Source: Lutjanus erythropterus
Lineage: Eukaryota; Chordata; Actinopteri; Lutjaniformes; Lutjanidae
Assembly: GCA_020091685.1 (NCBI GenBank)
Contig: CM034610.1
Location: 30,407,134-30,471,133 of the forward strand
Direction: 5' to 3'
DNA: 64,000 nt
The first letter of the stretch is position 1; the number at the start of each line of letters is the position of its first letter. Position numbers and translations under genes: made by a program. The notes under the pieces were generated by a model that saw only the letters and a list, made by a program, of their open reading frames with translations, had not been told where the DNA came from and ran no database searches. Positions 4,461 through 59,605 of the stretch are shown here, piece by piece.

Positions 4461-5265
4461 TGATCAACTGCATGTAAACAGTTTCACAGTGAGTGTGTTC
4501 TCTGAATTCCTACCCTATTATACTCAGTAATCTGGTTTCTCCCTCTGACCCCTCAAAAGACATCAAAGTTCAGCCTCTCAGCCCTGATAGAAACTGTAAC
4601 TTCCTGCCATTCATGAATGCAGATTTGAATTAAGCTGATTAAGCAGTTGATTGCTGTAAATCCTGGTTCTTGAAACAAACGTATAAAAGACAGAGGACAG
4701 GACTGTGAACCTAAAGCACAGCACACGAGCAGCCGATCAATGAATAAAGGTTGAGCTTGTTGCCAACTAAAAATACCTTCATGCATTTATTGATAGCAAA
4801 CTGCTGAACACAAATGCTGCCTGCAGTACGCCAAAGCTCAACAACATCTATTTTTAGAGGTGCGGCGGTCAGTTTTAAAGCTAGAGTGAAGATACCGGGA
4901 TTATATGAAACTAGAAGACTTAATGAATCCACTGATGTCAACTATGTCATGCTAGGTCAGGTCCCGTGACCTCTCACCTCAAGATAACTGAATGAAAGTG
5001 GGTTCTATAGGAACTATTGAGGTGGGACAGCTGAGTTTCTCCATCCTGCCAGAGGCCAGTCATGCTGTGGATGACTGGATCACTGTATTCTGACTTCCAG
5101 CTGCTAACCTTGAGATTCAGAATCAGCAGATGTCAAGGTTTAAAAGCAAATGATCTATTAGTTTTGTCCTCTGAGCCTTAAATACACACTTGTGCACACA
5201 CTGGTCTCTTGCTTTCTGGAGAGAATAATCTGACCGATCTGAAACTGAGGCAGTTCTGCACCGAC

Positions 5266-8565: not shown

Positions 8566-10133
8566 TGTAGATGTGTATTGCTGCCATGCCAGAAAAAGTA
8601 AATTCGATCACGTTATAATGTGAAAAGTTATAACAAGATATTTTCCTTGTTATAACAAGGATGTTCACGTTGTTATAACATGTTATAACAAAAACCTCAT
8701 ATTATAACAATGTACTTTTTATATTATTATGATGTTAAATACTTCAAGTTATAATGAGATTATCAACATGTTCTCATCCCAACTCGTCACATAATTTGTC
8801 ACCCCTTGCGCCTGATATTAAGCACAAGCTACCCTCGTCTTTTAGTCTTTTAACACTAAAATGGTCGCAGATTAGTTAGGTTTGGGATAAGATGTTGTGT
8901 ACATCATGTGAAGCCAGTAAATCAGCTCACACAATGAAGGTCATATGACATGACAACACAGGTGCCTTTCAACTTTTAATGTTTTGGTGTCACATGGGAC
9001 ATGAAGTTCAGTCTCCTGGGTGAAAGTCCTGTGTTTGTTTGAGACATCCATCCAATCCCAGTCTCCACCTTGACACTTTCTTGACTTTAACAACAACATA
9101 TACACAATTCATTGCACAATTCAAATGGAACCAAATAATAATTTGGCTCTTGTCATAGACAACTGTTCATATTTTTTCTGATGTTAGGTCACCGGAAGGG
9201 GAGGGACTTTAGCTCTCTATAATAAGTCAACAGCGTGGGACACCATAGCTGTGGATGGGTGCTGTCCATGTTTGTATGAGTCGCTGAGAGGCGGTGACAA
9301 ATCATCTGTATCTGACGAGTTGGGAATGAGGCCAGGTGTGAGCATTTATTGTTGTAACATAAAACTTTTCATGTTACTGTCATGGTTTGGGGATTTTTGT
9401 TAGTCATTTCCTGTTTTGTTTTATTTTTGTCTTCCCTCTTGTTTCTCTGACTTTACTTCCTATCTTAATCCTTTTTGATTACACTTTGTTTCACCTGTGT
9501 CTGATTACTTCCTTGTCTATTTAGTCCTTGTGTTTCTCTGTTTTGTCGTCAGCCTTTTGTGTCAGTCCCATGCGCTTTGGATTTCTGCCTTATTTTTTGG
9601 ACTTTGCATTTGTTTTATGGACTTTTGTGTTCCACTTTTGCCTTCTTTGGATTTGTTTGCATTTTTTGGATTTGTCTTTGGTTCAGGCCAGCCAGTCTCG
9701 TCTTTTATTATTAAAATACATTTGAACTGCTTACATTTTGCCTCTGTCTGCATTTCTGGGGGAGGGAGTAAAGATGCAGAAACAAGAACTACCAAATAAA
9801 ACAGGAAATAACTAACAAAAAACCCAAACCATGAGTTATAATATGGTTTCAGTCTTGTGACCTCTCTTTTTTGAATATGATTACTGGATTTTGGGTTTAT
9901 CACTCCACAGGGAATCCCATTTAAGCATGACCTCATTTTCCAAATAAGTTACTATGTTATAACATGCAACATTTCATGTTATAGCAAGATAAACAGTATA
10001 TTGTTATGATAAAGATGTATGTTATAATAACATGAAAATATGTTGTTAGAACAGTAAACTTTTAATGTTATAACTTGATACTGATCCGTTTTTCTTTTTC
10101 AACCCTGTGGCAGCAATACACATCCTGTCAAAG
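8566..10133. mobile_element. Probable TIR element of family B with nested insertion
   Basis: Both ends carry GATGTGTATTGCTGCCA in inverted orientation (about 8566 on plus, 10133 on minus), each followed inward by an AGAAAAAG-like motif and repeated TTATAACA units. This looks like a non-autonomous DNA transposon with long subterminal repeats. No transposase was seen. A second TIR element sits inside at 9380-9834. Confidence 0.55.
9380..9834. mobile_element. Non-autonomous TIR element, about 455 bp
   Basis: Left end TCATGGTTTGGGGATTTTTG and, on the other strand, right end TCATGGTTTGGGTTTTTTGT. The similarity extends about 40 bp (TTAGTCATTTCCTGTTTTGT inside the left end, matching the complement of the right). 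The interior is T-rich on plus and makes accidental long open frames on both strands, which I do not call genes. The class is uncertain; target-site duplications are not clear. Confidence 0.65.
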
Positions 10134-10191
10134 GTAAAATAGAAGCAAAGGTTTGAATATTCTAATGAACATGCTGTGATGCCACAGATAC

Positions 10192-11819
10192 CTGTGGAGG
10201 GTGTGGTGTCCCCTGCGCGGGGACAGGGGGCTGTGTGATGGGGACAGGGCCGGGGACTGTCCCGGGGAACTGAGCTGTCTGGTGGTGGTCTTGATGTAGG
10301 AGGGGAAGATGGGAGGGTAGGGTTTCACCACGGGGCTGGAGGAGGAGGATGAGTGGGTGGACCTGAGGAGCCGTTTGGCCAATGTGGGGCTCTCCTGGGG
10401 GGGCAGCGGGCTGAAGGACACACTGCTCCTCCTGACCTCCTCCTGCTGAGCGGAGGGGGAGGCGCCGGCCGCAGCAGAGTGGCTGGACCCGGCACTTAGG
10501 CAGTCCTCGAGGGACTCGGCACTGGTGGCTGAACCCAGCTGACCCTCGCCCTCGTCGAACACGGTCCCTGAGCTCGGCCCCTCTGTGGGCTCAGCGGGTG
10601 GAGGACTGAGCTCATCCACCTCGGGTTCAGTCTCATCCTCCTGCCGGGTTTCACCTCCTGCTTCCCCCTCCTCCCCTGGGGTTCTCCCAATACTGTCAAC
10701 TGTGAGATCAGGGAAGCTGTTACCACTGGTTGCCGTGGTGACCGGGCTGACTGCTGCCCCCCCTGTAGTCGCCATGGTGACGGCTGTAAGAGGGGGCTGC
10801 TGCAGCCAAGCATGCTGCTCTTTTGTGCCTGTGGCAACACAAAGAGAAGCTTCTCTCTCCTTCTCCCTCTGCCCCTTCCCATTTAGCTCCGGATGCCCCA
10901 CCTCCTCCTCCTCCTTCTCCTCCTTCTCTTCCTTCTCCTCCCTCCTCTCGTGCACCTCTGTTTGGAAGGGGAGGTGCAGCGTTGACGGTGGCTGGTCCAT
11001 GTGCTTGACAGAGCTGGATAGAGTCCCCGTCTCTAGGAACGACAGGGCGTCTGACCCCAGCTCTAATTCAGGGGTCAGGTCAAGCACCTCAGGAGGAGTT
11101 AATTTAACTCCCCCGTTGCTCTGCTTCCTCCCCTCTTCTCCTCCCCAGCTCAAATCCTTCTCTCCCCCGTTTGGTGCTTCCATGATCGAGTTAACCCCCC
11201 CATGCTGCTGGTGCTGCAGCCTGATAGCGAGCTGGATGTCTGCGAGCAGATCCTCGTGGTCAGCCGCTGAGTGGAAGCTGTAGATGTCGGTGTCTGACCC
11301 CGAGCTCCCTCCCTTCTGCCCTCCTTCCTCTGCGGGAGACGTCGCTGCTGTGGAGGCTTTCCGTTGCACCTCCTGCCTCTTCTCTCCTCCAGCTCTGTCT
11401 CCATCCTTCCTCCCCTGCTCAGCTTTCTTTTTCTTCTCGGGAAAAGCAGCCTCTGTGTCCGACTGTCCCAGCTCGTCCGCAGACATTTCAGGTGTTTTTG
11501 TATCCAGCTCATCATGTTGGGATGCTAACACGTCCTCCTTTGAGCCTGTCACCGATGAACACACGTCTCCTTTCCCTTTCAGGTTGCCCTTTCTCTTCCG
11601 GATGGAGAAAACAGAGGACTTGGACTCGGATTTGTTTTTCTTCCCTCCTCCTCCTCCGCTGCTGCCTGCTCCTTTACCTCCATGCTTACCCTGCTTCTTT
11701 CCTCCCTTTTTTGTCGTGTCCCCTCCTCCCTCTCTCCATCCTTCATCCAGTGAAGGGTAGCTTCCATTACCCGACGCTGCTGCTGCAGCTTTCCTCTGCT
11801 TCGCCTCCTGGTTGCCCAT
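10192..11819 (-). CDS. fmn2: fmn2 coding exon 1
   Basis: 1628 bp on the minus strand, 542 codons plus two bases. The start MGNQEAK sits in a good initiation context (CAACATGG) and Gly2 could be N-myristoylated, as suggested for FMN2. In order: alanine and glycine/lysine-rich basic region (1-85), a segment SKEDVLASQ (93-101), DTDIYSFHSA (176-185) followed by the DLLADIQLAIRLQHQQ helix (190-205), an acidic glutamate-lysine run near 291-304, a serine/proline-rich acidic middle, and PYPPIFPSYIKTTTRQL (about 500-516) followed by SP-rich repeats. The donor is CACAG|GTATCT with GT at 10191-10190; the frame stays open to 10128 only by read-through into the intron. Long open frames on the plus strand and in other minus frames are shadows caused by the GC-rich, stop-poor exon. 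Confidence 0.95.
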
Positions 11820-12300
11820 GTTGATGGAGAGTGACCTGAGCCTCTCAGGTCATGCCTGGGAGAGCTCCCTCCTGCCTGGGGGAGCCTTTAGATGCCTGTG
11901 ATGAAGAAGGTAGAAGCGTTTTAGGCTAATCTGTGGATGCACGTCTGGTGGAGGAGGAGGAGGAGCTGCTGCTGATGGTGTTTTTTTTCCCCCCACCAGC
12001 TCTCTTGTGCAATGATCTTCCTCGTTGTTTTCCGGTGACGAAGGCTGGCGTGGCAGTGATGTTGACGCTGATGCAAGAGAGAGATACAGCTACCCCTTTC
12101 CTCCTCCCCTTTCTCTCTCTCCGTCTTACCCTCCCCCTCCTCCCCCTCCTCCTCGTCCTCCTCCTCCTCCTCCTCTCCATCTGCTGAAAGGAGTGACGCA
12201 GGCACTGCATGCTCAGTGGAGAGCTGAGAGGGAGGCAGACTGGGAGAGATGGAGAGCAACTGGGATGTGGAAACATAGCCAAGCCTGCTGGCAAAAAGGG
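11820..12300 (-). promoter_or_regulatory. fmn2: fmn2 5' flank, probable 5' UTR region
   Basis: Immediately upstream of the fmn2 start. It contains purine/pyrimidine-biased tracts (CTCCTC-rich on plus at about 12090-12175) and a possible splice acceptor on the minus strand (TTCTACCTTCTTCATCACAG, AG at 11897-11896) that would place a 5' UTR exon boundary at 11895. I see no clear TATA box and cannot place the transcription start. Confidence 0.35.
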
Positions 12301-13332: not shown

Positions 13333-13870
13333 GCTTCAAACTGTCCAGCATCCAGTACAGACTGCAGGCTGTTTTTGTTTCAAATAATAATCATTATCAT
13401 TACTTTTTTTCATAATAATACACAAATAAATTGCCATAGATCTCCTGTAATTATGCCAAGTGACACGTGATTCAACACAACGCTGCTCACCTCCTGCAGC
13501 TGAGAGTAGGACAGGTTCATTTGGGGGACAGGGACACAGGGCTGCTGAGGATGAAGCTGAATCTGCATCTGTGGGACCTGGCATCAGGGACAGCATCAAT
13601 AGTTTCATAAAGGTTTTCCTGCATTGATTAAATATCAGCAAAAAGAGAAGTGAGATGTAAACATTTCTGTGATAATATGAAGTAACTAATGTTAGAGTAG
13701 CAACAGTAGCTTATTACACTGTGGCCAAAACTGACCACTCACAGACTAAACCAGCTTTCTTTTTGAAGAATATGGTGACGTACTGTTGCCCTGTCTTATC
13801 TCTCTGCTCTCTTAATTTCCTTTCTTTACATTTTTGGAAGCCAGATTTGTCTTTAATATGACATCAGTCC

Positions 13871-14528
13871 AGAACAGCCCACACCACACCAGATCAAACC
13901 ACACCAGACCAGACCAGACCACACCAGACCAGACCACACATGACCACACCACACCAAACCAAACCAGACCAAACCAAACCAAACCAAACCAAAGCAGACC
14001 AGATCTGACCAGACCACACATGACCTGACCACACCACACCACACCACACCAGACCAAACCACACCACACCAAACCACACCAGATCACACCACACCAGACC
14101 AGACCAGATCAGACCAGACCACACATGACCAGACCAAACCAGACCAAACCAGACCAAACCAAACCAAACCAGACCAGGTCTGACCAGACCACACCAAACC
14201 ACACCAGATCACACCACACCAGACCAGACCAGATCAGACCAGACCACACCAGACCACACATGACCAGACAACACCACACCAGACCAAACCAGACCAAACC
14301 ACACCAGACCAGACCAGACCAGACCAGATCACACCACACCAGACCAGACCAGACCAGATCAGACCAGACCACACCAGACCACACCAGACCACACATGACC
14401 AGACCAAACCAGACCAAACCAAACCAGACCAGACCAGGTCTGACCAGACCACACCAAACCACACATGACCAGACCACACCACACCAGACCAAACCAGACC
14501 AAACCACACCAGACCAGACCAGACCACA
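13871..14528. repeat. Pentanucleotide (CCANA)n array, about 650 bp
   Basis: Uninterrupted 5-bp units of the types CCAGA, CCACA and CCAAA, with occasional CCAGATCA and ACACATGACC variants. A larger repeat is visible: the marker AGACCAGGTCTGACCAGACC appears at 14171 and again at 14431, 260 bp apart. Because the unit length is not a multiple of three and the unit has no stop codon, long frames are open on both strands (VWSGL-type on minus, PDQTR-type on plus); these are not genes. Confidence 0.97.
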
Positions 14529-23987: not shown

Positions 23988-24496
23988 CTACATTGGATCT
24001 TTTTTCTTGAATGCCACAGCCTTCCTCTGTTGAAACTGTGGCTTATTCTTCTTTTGATTCCACTGGCACATCAAAATGTCCCTGAAAGTTGTCCGGAAGG
24101 TCTTGTTACACAGGGCATAGCACATGGGATTGACTGTGCTGTTAACATAACACAACCAATAGCCCAGTGCCCATAGAGTCTCTGGAATACAGTCCTGACA
24201 GAAAGTGTTGACCAACACCATGATGTTGTACGGTAACCATGTTGTGATAAAGGCAAACAGGATGGCGCTGAGTGTCCGTGCTGCTTTCTTCTCATTTGCC
24301 TTTTTTTCGTTCTTGCGCTTGTTGATCTCTGTCTTGGCCTTTGAGGCAAAGCGTTTGGCCATTGCTGCATCTTTCATGGTTATGGACGAAGGTGACTGGT
24401 CAGTGGGTGATGGGTTTGACTGTGACCCTTTTCGACTTTTGCCAGATGATGGTTGTTTATCCTTGTTTTTCTTCCCCTTTTTAGATTTCTTACCAT
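23988..24496 (-). CDS. chrm3: chrm3 coding exon 5
   Basis: Acceptor AG at 24498-24497; the first bases AT complete Asp425 with G from exon 4. It codes the lysine-rich end of the third intracellular loop, TM6, TM7 and the tail. The stop is at 23990-23988. TM6 reads [12 protein letters not shown]; the residue after Trp511 is Leu where mammalian muscarinic receptors have Thr. Confidence 0.95.
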
Positions 24497-27400
24497 CTAG
24501 ACACCCAGATAGACAGATAGATAGTAGACATTAGACATTATGTATGTTTGTATTACCTTGATATACATCATGCAAAAAAAAGACCACATAGTAGGGTTAT
24601 GTCTAACCTGTTTGGCCTGCAGCTTCAGCTTCCTCCTCTGAACCTGATTGCTCCCCAACTTCATTGTTGTTGAAGCTGTCACAGCTGCTCTGCTCTGCCT
24701 CACCCACTGTGGTTGTCATGGTGTTGACAGACCTCTTGGATGCATGGCGACCTGGCAACAGTGAAGAAAACTGGAAGCAAAATGCACCACACCTCCCTCT
24801 GCCTCCCATTCCTCCTGGTATGCTGGCATTGTCCTTGTTGTTCTTTTCTGAAGCCAGCTGATTTAGTTCATAGCTGCTGCTGCTTTGAGAGCTCATTTGG
24901 CGTTGCATGGTTGACGAATCCTTCTGACTGTTAGTTGCACCTTCTCCGCCAGCTTTTCCACTACCACCTCCTTGATTCTGAGCCTGACTTGGCTTGTTGC
25001 CTGCCCCAGATCCCTTGAGACCTTGTACATCTTTTGCACGCTTCTCTGTCTCCTGATAGATCTTCCAAAACAGGATTGCCATAATAGTTACTGGCAAGTA
25101 GAATGCAGCAATAGCAGTGCAGAATGTAATGATGGGCTCAGACAGAAACTGGATGTAGCACTCATTAGGTTGGACTGTCCGCTCACCAACAATGTACTGC
25201 CAGAACAAGATGGCTGGGGCCCAAAGAATGAAAGAGATGGACCAGGCTAATCCAATCATGGTCATGGCCCGCTTGGTTGTACGCTTAGCCCGGTAGGTCA
25301 AAGGTCTGGTCACAGAGAAATACCTAAGAACAGCAAAAAGGAGCAATATACAGAGTAAATGTAACTGTGTTGTGCATTACTATCCACAACATTGTCTTTC
25401 TAAACAGCTGCATGTTCACACTCCCATCGTATCAAGTAAGGCAGCTTTATCTGTGCCCCTGTGGTTAAAAATATGACCCACTACACCTACCACTAGGCCT
25501 ACTCCACCAACGTCATTTCTGGAGGCACCCTTCTATTTATGTTTTGATGTGTCGTTAAAGTCAGATGATGCACTGTAGCATTAAGAGCAAGAAAGACAAC
25601 ATATGGTGGAGGTGGGATGGATAGATGGGTCAAACAGACGGGACTTTCACCCAAGAGACGGGTTTGTGACCCATGTGAAACCAGTGGTCAAGGTTGATTT
25701 TTTTTTTAACTTAGGTCACATACATCAGTTATGTGACCTACGTAAGTTATGTTATATAACATTATGTGTGTTAATTTGCCTAAGTAACATACTAGAAAAG
25801 TTAAGTAATCAGAATAATCACATTTTACAAACTAATCAGCATCCATAGGTGTAAAAAAAATTTAATTTCAGGTACTATGTTAATCAACAAAAAATTACAA
25901 CAAACATTCTGCTACCTGTCAAAGCTGATGACAAGCAGGTTCATGACTGAGGCGTTACTGGCAACGTAGTCTATGGCAAGCCACAAGTCGCAGACAACTG
26001 GCCCCAGGGCCCACTGGTCCATGATGATGTAGGTGGTATACAGGTTCATTGACAGCGTGCCAATCGTCAGGTCAGCAAATGCCAGGCTGAGCAGGTAGTA
26101 ATTGTTCACAGTCTTCAGTGCCTTATTGATCTTGAATGACACCAACACCAAGATGTTGCCGACAACAGTGACAAGAGAAAGAGATCCGGTGAGGAAGACA
26201 ATAATGATGACCTGAAGATGAAGAAATAAGAGGACAAAGAACCAAAGACGGTGGTTAAATGCATTGACACTCTTACTGATTTCCACAGAATGACTCAAAA
26301 TCTCAAAAGAAAATCCTATTGTTAACACCAACAAAGTTAAATTATCTAGATTTCTTGGGAATACATTCTTTTGGGGATTTAGGTCAACTGACTCACTTCA
26401 ATACAGAAACACCATTGTGCATAAGACAATGGGCAGCACACGTCTGTTGGTGACTGAGAGGACAGTGCAGGCAGGCAAAGTGCAGTGATATGTTTCATGA
26501 CTAGCATACAAACAGCTAAGCGAAGTTCGTAAATTATATGCCTATTTACAAATCTCATAGCCCCAACTGGCTGACATTTTACAGTGCATTACTTTTGCTG
26601 GCGAGAAGTTTTAATGTTGTGTTACAGAGTTTGGGTAGGGGAACACTTTTCTTCCATCACTTTCTCTACCCCCTCGTCTTGTATGTGTCGCCTCTTGTTA
26701 TGCAGTCATATACAGCTGTTATCTCATTGGCTGTGCTTTGAAGCAGCCTGTGCCAAAGTGAAATAATCTGAACTTTAAGCGCAGCAGGCCATGCCAACGG
26801 TAGTACCTCCACTTAGTTGGGTGCAGCTGTTCTCCCCGTAGGAAAACAATGACAAAGTCAGGGCAAAGTTTACCAGTGATCATCTGTGGGCACCTTTAAA
26901 ACTTTTAGAGTTATAATTTAAACCATGTCAGAGCACAGCAACTGCTACTTTACTTGTACCTAATGATATTGACAGGGCACTGGAAATTAAATAACATTCT
27001 ATTACAGTATTATTTTTAAAACCATCCTTTTTAGGCAATGATTTCATGACAAGGGTCTATTCTAAAGGTTAAAAGGTCTATAAAGGTTAAAAAGTAACTA
27101 ATGTCTGTTTCTCACACTGAAACTGACATTTTTATCCAGATGATACTCATATTAAATCTTGCTCTTATAAAACAGGAACTTATTTAAATGAAAGTGGATG
27201 GATGGACGACTACAATTTAAACAGACTTATGAAGGAACTTGCATAGAAAAAATCAAGTCATTAATTAAATAAGACAAGTCTCATAGCTTTCCATAGATGC
27301 AAAGTTTATCTTGGAACACCAACTATAAACGACAAATGAGCCATGAATTCCCTGGAGCTTTGGAGCAGCCATGTGAAGAGTACAGCCGAATGTTTGTCTG

Positions 27401-28065
27401 GCAGTTAGAATTGTTTGCTACGGAAGCCACAGCATTTACACAGCGAGGCCACAAAACTAACTTACTGGCTCTGCTCTGGAGTGCTTTCAACCTGCAGGTG
27501 ACACATGTCTCATGTCTGCATATTTAGGTGGCAATAACTGCAGCGATCGAACTGAGGAATCAATTACTACATGTCATAAAAACAGTACAACTGATGCAAT
27601 GAATCAGAAGTAGAAAGTAGAACTGCTGTTAAAATCACAGCTGATTGTTACCTGCCAGACAGTATGTCCTCCCAATGGGTCAAAGTCTTCTGCTGGCAGC
27701 ATTAAAGTCCCATTGACTGGTGAATCAGTGAAGTTTCCTCCTTGCCTTGAAACATGACTGACATTCTGTTGCTTCCACCCTCCAACACTGTCAGATAATA
27801 TGGCCAACTCCTGGTAAGAGCCACCTGAAGACGTGGAGAAGCAAGCATTTGACTTCCTGTCTTCCGCTTACATATCCTTGTGAATGTTTTTAAGAATATA
27901 CTTTAAAATGTGCACAAAACATCACAATATCTGCATTACTTCACCGCTATAAAGATACTCAGTGCTGTCGACAGTACCTAAGCTGGCAGGCTCGGCTTTC
28001 ATATCAGCACCAGGAGAACTGTTGCTAAGGAAGTGGAGAGAATCAGAGCTGGAGGTCAGGTTCAT
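23988..28065 (-). CDS. chrm3: chrm3, muscarinic acetylcholine receptor M3 (five coding exons)
   Basis: A Gq-coupled plasma-membrane receptor for acetylcholine. Coding exons (minus): 28065-27978, 27824-27652, 26211-25916, 25323-24608, 24496-23988; they sum to 1782 nt, 593 residues plus stop (human M3 has 590). Seen features: N-glycosylation sites NLT, NSS, NVS, NFT in the N-terminus; [10 protein letters not shown] before TM1; Asp134 in TM2; Cys161; ligand-binding Asp168 in [13 protein letters not shown] at 185-187; a long third intracellular loop with SSSYELNQ and GRCGAFCF typical of M3; LAKRF-like [13 protein letters not shown] before TM6; WLPYN at 511-515; NPMCY in TM7; C-terminus [10 protein letters not shown] resembling human M3. 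The loop motifs favour M3 over M1 and M5. Fish often have two chrm3 genes; a or b cannot be decided here. Confidence 0.96.
24608..25323 (-). CDS. chrm3: chrm3 coding exon 4
   Basis: Acceptor AG at 25325-25324 (pyrimidine tract TTTTTGCTGTTCTTAG); the first G completes Arg of the DRY motif. It codes the second intracellular loop, TM4, TM5 and most of the third intracellular loop. Donor GT at 24607-24606 (ACAG|GTTAGA). The next intron is only 111 bp and contains in-frame stops. Confidence 0.95.
25916..26211 (-). CDS. chrm3: chrm3 coding exon 3
   Basis: Acceptor AG at 26213-26212 after TTTCTTCATCTTC; begins GTC (Val88) in phase 0. It codes TM1 to TM3 and ends two bases into the Arg codon of DRY. 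Donor GT at 25915-25914. Confidence 0.95.
26212..27651 (-). other. chrm3: chrm3 intron 2 (1440 bp)
   Basis: GT-AG intron just before TM1. No repeat family or nested gene recognised. The other introns are 153 bp (27977-27825), 592 bp (25915-25324) and 111 bp (24607-24497). Confidence 0.85.
27652..27824 (-). CDS. chrm3: chrm3 coding exon 2
   Basis: Acceptor AG at 27826-27825; first bases GT complete Gly30. It codes the extracellular N-terminus ending PLGGHTVWQ, with donor GT at 27651-27650 in phase 0 (GGCAG|GTAAC). The ATG at 27807-27805 is not needed as a start: the frame of exon 1 reaches it correctly. Confidence 0.9.
27978..28065 (-). CDS. chrm3: chrm3 coding exon 1 (start codon)
   Basis: ATG at 28065-28063 gives [17 protein letters not shown] and so on, 29 codons plus one base; donor GT at 27977-27976 (TTAG|GTACTG). 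A strong acceptor (TCTCTTTTTCTTCCAG, AG at 28083-28082) lies just upstream, so this exon begins at 28081 and earlier 5' UTR exons are expected. An upstream ATG at 28081 is out of frame. Confidence 0.85.
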
Positions 28066-28081
28066 GATGACCAACGGACAT

Positions 28082-28542
28082 CTGGAAGAAAAAGAGAAAA
28101 TAGGTTATGGAAAGCAAAAATGACAGATTAAGATGTTTAACTTTTTTTTAACAAAAGATTTGGGACAAAAACGTAGATGTAGCTAAAGTAATTTAAAAGT
28201 GAAGTTACTATTTCAATCAGTGGAGACGGCAGTTTTGATGAGTGTGTTAAACTGGAGCAAAAGGCACTGTAGCCACAGGCAAGTAAACTGTATATGTTAA
28301 ACACTAATTACTGACCAGTACAGGTTTTGATATTGTGACTTGCTCATAGCACCCAGCTACAACCATCTGTTATGACCCCCAGCTGTAAGTATTGTATATT
28401 TCTGTGTGTTCTTGCATTAATTGTTTTTGGTGGAGTGTGAGAGGTCTTGTTCTCTTTGAGGATCTGTGTCTGTGACGACTGGCTGACCACCAGTGATGCA
28501 ACCACTGCAGTTTGATTGAGTCCTGAAGCCGGCCCCTATTTA
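28082..28542. other. chrm3 upstream sequence, nothing firm
   Basis: Presumably the 5' UTR intron of chrm3. It leads into an older repeat around 28420-28540 that is interrupted by the MITE at 28543. Confidence 0.4.
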
Positions 28543-51089: not shown

Positions 51090-51835
51090 CTGGCCTTGCA
51101 TGATTACAAGATTCAGAACTGATTGTACTCAGTGATTTCAAATTAAATTGGTTGAGTTCTGCCTCTGAGTATTTAAAAGAAGTCTGCAGTAATATTAATC
51201 TTTCACAGATAATTACTGACCCTACCAGACCAAACTTAAAGGACCCCTGTAAGTCATTTCTTCTTGACTTAATTTTAACAAACAGAAAAGAAAAAAATAG
51301 TGTATATCACTCTGCCTTAAGATTCATCACTGGAGATAGCTATAACATCCAACATCGTGACCTGTATACTAAGGGTGGGTGGCCATCTCTCAGTGTAAGA
51401 CGTGAAAGACACTGGGTTTTATTTATTTATAAAGCTTGTATCTTTTACCTTCTTACATCAGTTCATTGCTTTCTTTTAATGTGGTTTCTTATCAAACTCG
51501 GTCCAGTGATTGGATTACGCTGCAGGTGCCAGCTGTTTTTACTTGTTAAATCCACTTTTGCACACTGTGCACCTGCAACATGGAACAACATGCAGAACAA
51601 TTTAAAGCTTTCCTCATTTTTACCAGAGGGCAATTTAAATCTTTAACTGTATCACTGTTCTACATTTTAACTGTTTTTATTCATTATTTTATGTTTTTAT
51701 TTTTTTACATTTTTAATTTAATAATAATAATGATAATAATTTACTTCTTGTTGCCACTTTTATGTAAGTTTCTCTTTTTTCTCTACCTCAATGTATTTCC
51801 AAGTTAAAATAAAGGTTGAATGAATGAATAGATCA
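51090..51835 (+). mobile_element. LINE second-ORF remnants and 3' end, L2/CR1-like
   Basis: First SASEYLKEVCSNINLSQIIT and DPTRPNLKDPCKSFLLDLIL, the end of the endonuclease domain. Then, after an internal deletion, VYHSALRFITGDSYN, GWPSLSVRRERHWVLFIYKA and CAPATWNNMQNNLKLSSFLP, the C-terminal end of the RT protein. The 3' UTR ends with a TGAA/TGAATGAA tail near 51818-51830. The RT core is missing. Confidence 0.85.
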
Positions 51836-56949: not shown

Positions 56950-58550
56950 TGATAATCCATATCCTCCAATGGAATGTCAGAAGTTTAAATGGTAATGGGC
57001 AAGAGTTCAAGAAGGCTGTCGCTGATTTAAAAGTTAGACTTGATGTTATTTATGTACAAGAAACTTGATTAAGACCTCTCTTGGACTTACTTGTAATACA
57101 ACATCATTGCAAATATTCCATGAGGTCTCAGAAAGTGTTGGTCGAAGAAAAATATGGTGTGAGGATTGAAATGCTCAGGATACTCTAGGTGGAAGGGATC
57201 ATACAGACAGATAGGAGAAGCAGTTGAAGAGCTTGTATTTCTTAATGATGGAAGAGGTACTTGGGTGGATGTTACAAGAGATACAGTTTTATGTCTAGAT
57301 CTTATGCTAGTCTAGGGAATATATGGTATAGTATATATTAATTTATGTGAATGGAATATAAAGAGATACTAACAGGGAGTGATCACTTTCCAATATTGCG
57401 ATTTATAAATTTTGACTTGTATTTGCAGGAAGGTTATGTAATGAAAAAGATGGTGCTTTCCTAAAGCTGACTGGGGAAAATGTAGGAAATGTTACATTGA
57501 GTCCACTGAAAGAATATTAATGTAGGGTGATATAGATGGCTGTGCAGCAGCAGGGATTATTGATGCTGCATCAACATGTATCTCTAAGAGGACAGTGAAT
57601 GGGGAAGAAAGAAAGTGGTTCCATGGTGGAACAATGAATGCAAAAATGCTATAAAATAAAGACATTGTGCATTCTGAATTGAAGTCCAGACAATCTGACT
57701 ACCAAAGAAAGAGAGCTATGGCAAAGAAAGTTGAAGTCTTACAAATAATCATGCAACAAAGATAAGAATGCACTTTACATGAGCTGAAAATGGGTTTAGA
57801 GTGGATATATATACAGCTCCAAGACAAAAGCAATTATGCTATGTTTAGACAACTACCAGATGAAAATTATATTAAACCTGTTTCATATGATATGCAGAGA
57901 AGGTGTAATGCCTGGCAGCTGGAAAAGTGTTCTGGTTCTACCTTTTCCAAACCTGGTAAAGACCCAGCTAATGCAGGAAACTACAGACCCATAGCCACAA
58001 CATCTCACTTGTGTAAATGGATGGAAAATAACACTGTTTATAGGTTGACAGGACTGTTTAGTACATGTCAAAGTGGATTTTGTAAAAGATGTACAGTAGA
58101 TGCTTTAAAGTTAGTGATGAGGCAGAAGAAGCAGATAGTATGAAGGAGGTCATGGCTATAATATATTTTGATTTTGAGAAGACTTATGACTCAATGTGGA
58201 CGCTAATCAAAATGCATAAAATGGGTATTGAGGACTGTATAACTGGGTTCTAGAGCTCTTGTCAGATCAGACAGTCTGTGTTAAAGTATTATCCCAGTTC
58301 TGTTTAACATTATGATAAATTATGTCTTTATGAATGTTGGTGGAGATATTGGGTCATTGCTTTATGCAGATGAACAGACTATATGGAAAAGAGGGAGAAA
58401 CATTTGATGTGGTAAATTGCATTCAAAGTGCTATCATGTGTCATACGACTGGGGTTTAAGATGTTAATTGCAAAGTCCTGCTGCATGTTCTTTACCAGGA
58501 AGAGCAGGCTGGATAATGTGCAGCTCAAATTGCATGGACAGGGTGAATGA
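56950..58550 (+). mobile_element. LINE, I/Nimb-like, degraded
   Basis: Starts IHILQWNVRSLNGNGQEFKK, the N-terminus of the endonuclease domain, with VIYVQET soon after. Further along: FSKPGKDPANAGNYRPIATT, SHLCKWMENN, FDFEKTYDSMW (RT motif), LLYADEQTIWKRGRN in place of the usual YADD block, and CCMFFTRKSRLDNVQLKLHG. Many stops and frame changes are present. The order and motifs fit a fish I-clade (Nimb-like) LINE. It is cut on its 3' side by the Tc1 insertion at 58551. Confidence 0.85.
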
Positions 58551-59605
58551 GGTCAAAAGAAAAAGTTGCTGCCTGGATTTAACTAATCGAACAGGTAAGA
58601 GGCTTCCATTGGATAATTACCACAGTGATTAATATGTTTCAGCTGGCAACAAGTTATTGAACCCTAATTGGTGCAGTGAGGAGCTTCTCATTTTTTAAAC
58701 AACCATGTCAGAAGACATATCCTGTGGTCATGGAAAAGATGTTACTCTGTTTCAGAAGGATCAAATTACTGACCTGCATCAAGCAAAGAAAACAACTAAG
58801 GAGATTGATGAAACTACTAAAACTAGGTTAAGAACTGTCCAACACATTATTAAAACCTGAAAGGATAGTGATGAACCATCATCTTAGAGGAAGAAATGTG
58901 GTCGGAAAAAAATCTTGAATGATCGTGATTGGAGGTCATTTCAATGTTTGGTGAAATCACAACATAAAAATTCAACAGTAGAACTCACAGCTATGTTTAA
59001 TAGTGAAAGTAAGAGCACTTCCACACACAATGTGAAGAGAACTCAAGGAATTGGGACTAAACAGCTGTTTAACCACTTATCAGTGAGGATAATCAGGAAA
59101 AAAGGCTTAAGTTTGCTAGAGAGCATAAAGATTGGACTCTGGAGCAAAAGGTCATGTGGTCTGATGAGTCCAGATTTACCGTTCCAGAGTGATGGGGGCA
59201 TCAGAGTAAGAAGAGCGGCAGATGAAATGATGCTCCCATCATGCCTAGTGCCTACCGTACAAACCTGTGGGGGCAGTGTTCTGATCTGGGGTTTCAGGGA
59301 GCATGAGACATTATTTTCACACATGGACTGTCCAACACAAAAAAGTCCAGACCTCAACCCCACTGAGAAACTTTGGGATGTTCTGGAGAAGACTTTAAAC
59401 AGCGATCTGACTCTCCATCATCAATACAAGATCTCAGTGAAAAATTAATCCAACAGGATGGACAGAAATAAATGTTGTGACACTGCATAAGTTCATCAAA
59501 ACAATGCCATGGCAGATTCATGCTGTAATCCAATCGTAAGCTAAAGGCAGTCCAACAAAACATTAGAGTGGGTGACTTTTTTTTTTTTTTTTTGACCAGG
59601 CAGTG
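58551..59605 (+). mobile_element. Tc1-like transposon, copy 2
   Basis: The left terminus is worn (GGTCAAAAGAAAAAGTTGCT); the right end TTTTTGACCAGGCAGTG is followed by TA. The transposase starts at 58707 (MSEDISCGHGKDVTLFQKDQ) and includes CGRKKILNDRDWRSF and, near the end, HMDCPTQKSPDLNPTEKLWD, which is the second catalytic Asp region. The central part between GGSVLIWG and [12 protein letters not shown] is deleted and stops are present, so it cannot be active. Confidence 0.9.

Follow-up and report, generated by a model that had tools for sequence, protein, structure and literature searches.

The muscarinic gene of the window

The window, that is the whole 64,000-nucleotide stretch of DNA that was analysed, carries on its minus strand (28065–23988) a gene with five coding exons, which join into 1782 nt and encode 593 residues with no internal stops. 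The four predicted introns between them all have GT-AG borders and are located at codons 30, 87/88, 186 and 425, in phases 1, 0, 2 and 1; the mammalian counterpart has none of the four. The model of the earlier note, an M3 gene of five exons and 593 amino acids with these borders and phases and with introns in codon 30, after Gln87, in Arg186 of the DRY motif and in codon 425, was reproduced from the sequence. The strand had not been given in that note. The features, in the direction of transcription, are as follows.

28082..28100, minus strand: probable 3' splice site of a 5'UTR intron; pyrimidine tract with a CAG end immediately 5' of ATGTCCGTTGGTCATC-ATG
27978..28065, minus strand: coding exon 1, residues 1–29 and the first base of codon 30; ATG, GT donor, phase 1
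27825..27977, minus strand: intron 1, 153 nt, phase 1, N-terminal region; GT-AG, 2 in-frame stops
27652..27824, minus strand: coding exon 2, ending with Gln87; a 10-residue stretch aligns with solved M3
26212..27651, minus strand: intron 2, 1440 nt, phase 0, start of TM1, matching published 67a; GT-AG, 23 in-frame stops
25916..26211, minus strand: coding exon 3, TM1 to the AG of the DRY Arg codon; aligns to solved M3
25324..25915, minus strand: intron 3, 592 nt, phase 2, within the DRY Arg codon, matching published 166c; GT-AG, 20 in-frame stops
24608..25323, minus strand: coding exon 4, TM4, TM5 and the start of the third intracellular loop; aligns to solved M3
24497..24607, minus strand: intron 4, 111 nt, phase 1, third intracellular loop; GT-AG, 3 in-frame stops
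23988..24496, minus strand: coding exon 5, TM6, TM7, C-terminus and stop; aligns to solved M3

Since each of the four introns contains stops in the frame of the exon upstream of it, the reading frame of the gene is not maintained by read-through. Upstream of the coding region a sequence resembling a 3' splice site, TTTTCTCTTTTTCTTCCAG, ends 16 nt 5' of the receptor ATG, which fits the presence of an additional intron in the 5'UTR. Directly after this presumed acceptor there is a further ATG (28066–28081, minus strand), which stands 16 nt 5' of the receptor start codon and in a different frame. It is possible that this ATG opens an upstream ORF overlapping the receptor frame.

In comparison to solved structures, seven M3 chains stand at the top of the 31 chains listed, ahead of M1, M5, M4 and M2. 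The best match is an M3 chain (E 2.6e-163, 548 bits), against 480 bits for M1 and 477 bits for M5, although the solved muscarinic chains are engineered constructs of unequal length and their bits are not strictly comparable. The Pfam domain 7tm_1 is matched across residues 105–551 with 217.8 bits. Judged from its sequence, the gene therefore encodes a receptor with the rhodopsin-family 7TM fold that is closer to M3 than to any other muscarinic subtype, which supports the earlier identification of an M3-type receptor with coding introns.

Muscarinic loci in the same genome

The genome examined, probably that of a fish to judge from its gene content, size and the intron pattern, spans 937.6 Mb in 444 contigs and contains at least seven muscarinic-type loci, these being the window gene, L016, L014, L011, L012, L015 and a locus on C24 (L043–L045). 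Single open frames are found at four of the seven (L016, L014, L011 and L012), and three are split. Five of these loci (L011, L012, L014, L015 and L016) come from a set of 14 candidate muscarinic stretches, of which the remaining nine were other receptors and were discarded.

L016 (C16:22504098–22505981) has one open frame spanning both receptor halves, with 652 residues from the first Met. Among the four paralogues compared, all from this genome, it has the highest TM-core identity to the window protein at 76.4%, the two M5-like copies being 69.6% and 69.3% identical and the M2/M4-like copy 64.0%. The two genes are alike in encoding M3-like receptors, yet L016 has no coding intron, a longer third loop and CGC as the Arg codon of the DRY motif. 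By these comparisons the window gene is one of two M3-like copies in the genome, the one that bears introns. Because a single-exon M3-like copy is present alongside it, the window gene and L016 are most likely the two teleost duplicates, chrm3b and chrm3a respectively. The name chrm3b follows the available text of PMC6298421 (Pedersen et al. 2018), where CHRM3b is the intron-bearing copy.

The two other split loci, with breaks as read from tblastn pieces, likewise resemble arrangements given in the available text of PMC6298421. In L015 one break falls where TM1 ends and another in the third loop, the arrangement reported for CHRM2b; the C24 locus is interrupted shortly ahead of TM5 and again in the third loop, which is the arrangement reported for CHRM4a. 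The joined L043–L045 sequence also contains, at about 4855–4973, what looks like a damaged and partial duplicate of the TM6-TM7 exon, approximately 1.2 kb past the last exon match of this CHRM4a-like gene.

Correspondence with published intron gains

The earlier note left open whether this pattern of introns had been described. It has been, in PMC3151243 (Kumar et al. 2011) and in PMC6298421, as far as the available text of both papers goes, and an intron-bearing fish M3 gene is thus already on record. The former places CHRM3 introns 67a, in TM1, and 166c, in the DRY motif, in Takifugu, Tetraodon, stickleback and medaka; the CHRM3 genes of zebrafish, elephant shark and tetrapods are given as lacking both. 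Species-specific CHRM3 introns in the TM5-TM6 loop are also described there, and the available text does not say whether the teleost gene studied was the one copy or the other. PMC6298421, the sole match of a literature search for chrm3b and intron, describes teleost CHRM3b as having an N-terminal intron and another where TM1 begins, the N-terminal one being reported for fugu and inferred for stickleback. In its available text, intron gains in teleost mAChR genes are said to be unreported to the authors' knowledge, yet CHRM3 gains had been reported in 2011 (PMC3151243).

The CHRM3 genes of the four fishes in PMC3151243, which are probably of species other than that of the window, share with the window gene a phase 0 intron in TM1 and a phase 2 intron in the DRY motif, 99 residues apart, and also have a further intron between TM5 and TM6. 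By phase and spacing, introns 2 and 3 match the published 67a and 166c. The 99-residue stretch between the TM1 and DRY sites aligns to the solved M3 chain without gaps. The human residues at these sites are presumably Gln67 and Arg166. Teleost CHRM3b as described in PMC6298421 is, like the window gene, one of two CHRM3 copies and has an intron at the TM1 start, and its N-terminal intron is probably the counterpart of the one at codon 30 here; the window copy has a DRY intron, whereas the available text of that paper names none in CHRM3b. The parallel for the DRY intron therefore comes from PMC3151243 alone.

The best reading of the coding introns of the window gene is that they were gained. 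The one in the third loop may be specific to its lineage, a class already described in the available text of PMC3151243. Taken together, it is very likely that the window gene is chrm3b, intact and presumably expressed, with introns that belong to the described percomorph gains and to this lineage-specific class. The gene would then encode a Gq-coupled acetylcholine receptor, presumably expressed once the four coding introns are removed. The TM1 and DRY introns would be the gains described in spiny-rayed fishes, and would have arisen after the split from zebrafish. The N-terminal intron is probably also one of the described spiny-rayed-fish gains, and the third-loop intron would be a member of the lineage-specific class.

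The rule that muscarinic coding regions are intronless breaks down in spiny-rayed fishes. The window M3 gene adds one more genome to the published intron gain in vertebrate receptor genes and changes no current view. What this genome supplies is a control from within, in the form of intronless chrm3a-like and M5-like copies.

Intron origin, exon 1 and integrity of the copy

The exonic borders of introns 1 to 4 are TTAG|G, CAG|G, CAG|G and CAG|A. The earlier note had described the upstream exon ends as mostly CAG or TTAG before a G, as expected of gain at protosplice sites. This holds in so far as CAG ends three of the four and TTAG|G occurs once, but the last border is followed by A rather than G. 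At the TM1 site the window gene reads CAG|GTC, the intronless L016 reads CAG GTT and the two M5-like copies have GAG. At the DRY site the window gene reads GAC AG|G TAT, L016 reads GAC CGC TAC and the M5-like copies have AGG and AGA without an intron. The idea of gain at protosplice sites is only partly borne out by these comparisons. Since CAG G at TM1 in L016 and AGG or AGA at the DRY motif in the M5-like copies all occur without an intron, a protosplice site alone does not bring an intron. The CGC codon also means that the state of the DRY site before insertion cannot be read from L016.

An old interspersed repeat is located in the middle of intron 2, at about 747–1146 of the intron (window 26506–26905, minus strand). 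At least 41 other matching rows were found in the genome at 66–78% identity, with 40 of 309 candidates scored. A derivation of intron 2 from this element was considered and is unsupported, as the repeat stops short of the intron ends and so provides no evidence for an origin of the intron from it.

The acceptor tract of intron 4 sits in a short CTAT/CTGT microsatellite (tandem repeat 24506–24530), and the loop alignment between the window protein and L016 has a 64-residue gap beside this intron, a position that is not taken as exact in such low-complexity sequence. Intron 4 could be a gain private to this lineage, produced through local repair or intronization at a point of the loop from which some 64 residues still present in chrm3a have disappeared, with an acceptor tract supplied by the microsatellite. 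A search of 24470–24640 (intron 4 and its borders, seed 8) found no direct or inverted repeats of 10 nt or longer, so a mark of target-site or tandem duplication is not seen at that size. A private gain made in this way is considered unlikely; if true, it would make intron 4 a datable example of the birth of a new intron in vertebrates. Membership of the described class of lineage-specific gains is the preferred reading of intron 4.

Exon 1 (residues 1–30) is the least secure part of the gene model and rests on signals, these being its ATG, donor, phase and the N-linked sequons NLT and NSS. Comparison of exon 1 with the N-terminus of L016 gave no similarity beyond chance, the local score being reached by 922 of 2000 shuffles. 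In addition, the available text of PMC6298421 reports that its authors were unable to locate the first exon in either stickleback or medaka. The true start might accordingly be Met71, or lie in another first exon, in which case exon 1 and intron 1 as drawn are wrong and the remaining three introns hold. This is rather improbable, given the signals of exon 1, an exon 2 whose acceptor has a pyrimidine tract and whose phase is compatible with exon 1, and the N-terminal intron of fugu CHRM3b (PMC6298421, available text). The five-exon model is therefore retained.

Over the ungapped TM1-TM5 region (195 codons) the window protein and L016 have 147 identical residues. Their coding sequences differ at 43 first, 18 second and 115 third codon positions (176 in total), with a dN of 0.16; dS was not computable (returned as -1), which is taken as saturation. 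The window protein looks constrained by this sequence comparison, in a signal that covers both M3-like copies jointly. An intronless chrm3 elsewhere, coupled with an unexpressed window copy, was named in the earlier note as what would speak against the split gene, and half of this was found, in the intronless L016 on C16. That the window copy is dying or unexpressed, leaving the C16 copy as the working M3 gene, has in its favour the presence of this paralogue and of a third-loop stretch including SHAIFSIVLSLPG that is missing from the window copy, but is very improbable against 593 codons without a stop or frameshift, GT-AG borders on four of four introns and the third-position share of the differences, even with that constraint belonging to both copies together.

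Elsewhere in the window, the open frames at 51104–51646, 57766–58143 and 58888–59448 (plus strand) appear by eye to be remnants of LINE-type and Tc1-like transposons; a Pfam scan of the latter two found no match. A 5-base tandem array with the consensus CAGAC (13865–14526, about 132 copies, 79% matches) is largely open in both directions, for 170 aa on the plus strand and 159 aa on the minus strand. A long open frame at 10128–11849 (minus strand) has no Pfam match and resembles what we take to be the N-terminal exon of formin-2 (FMN2). In human 1q43, FMN2 presumably lies next to CHRM3, and the two genes are ordered and oriented there as in the window.
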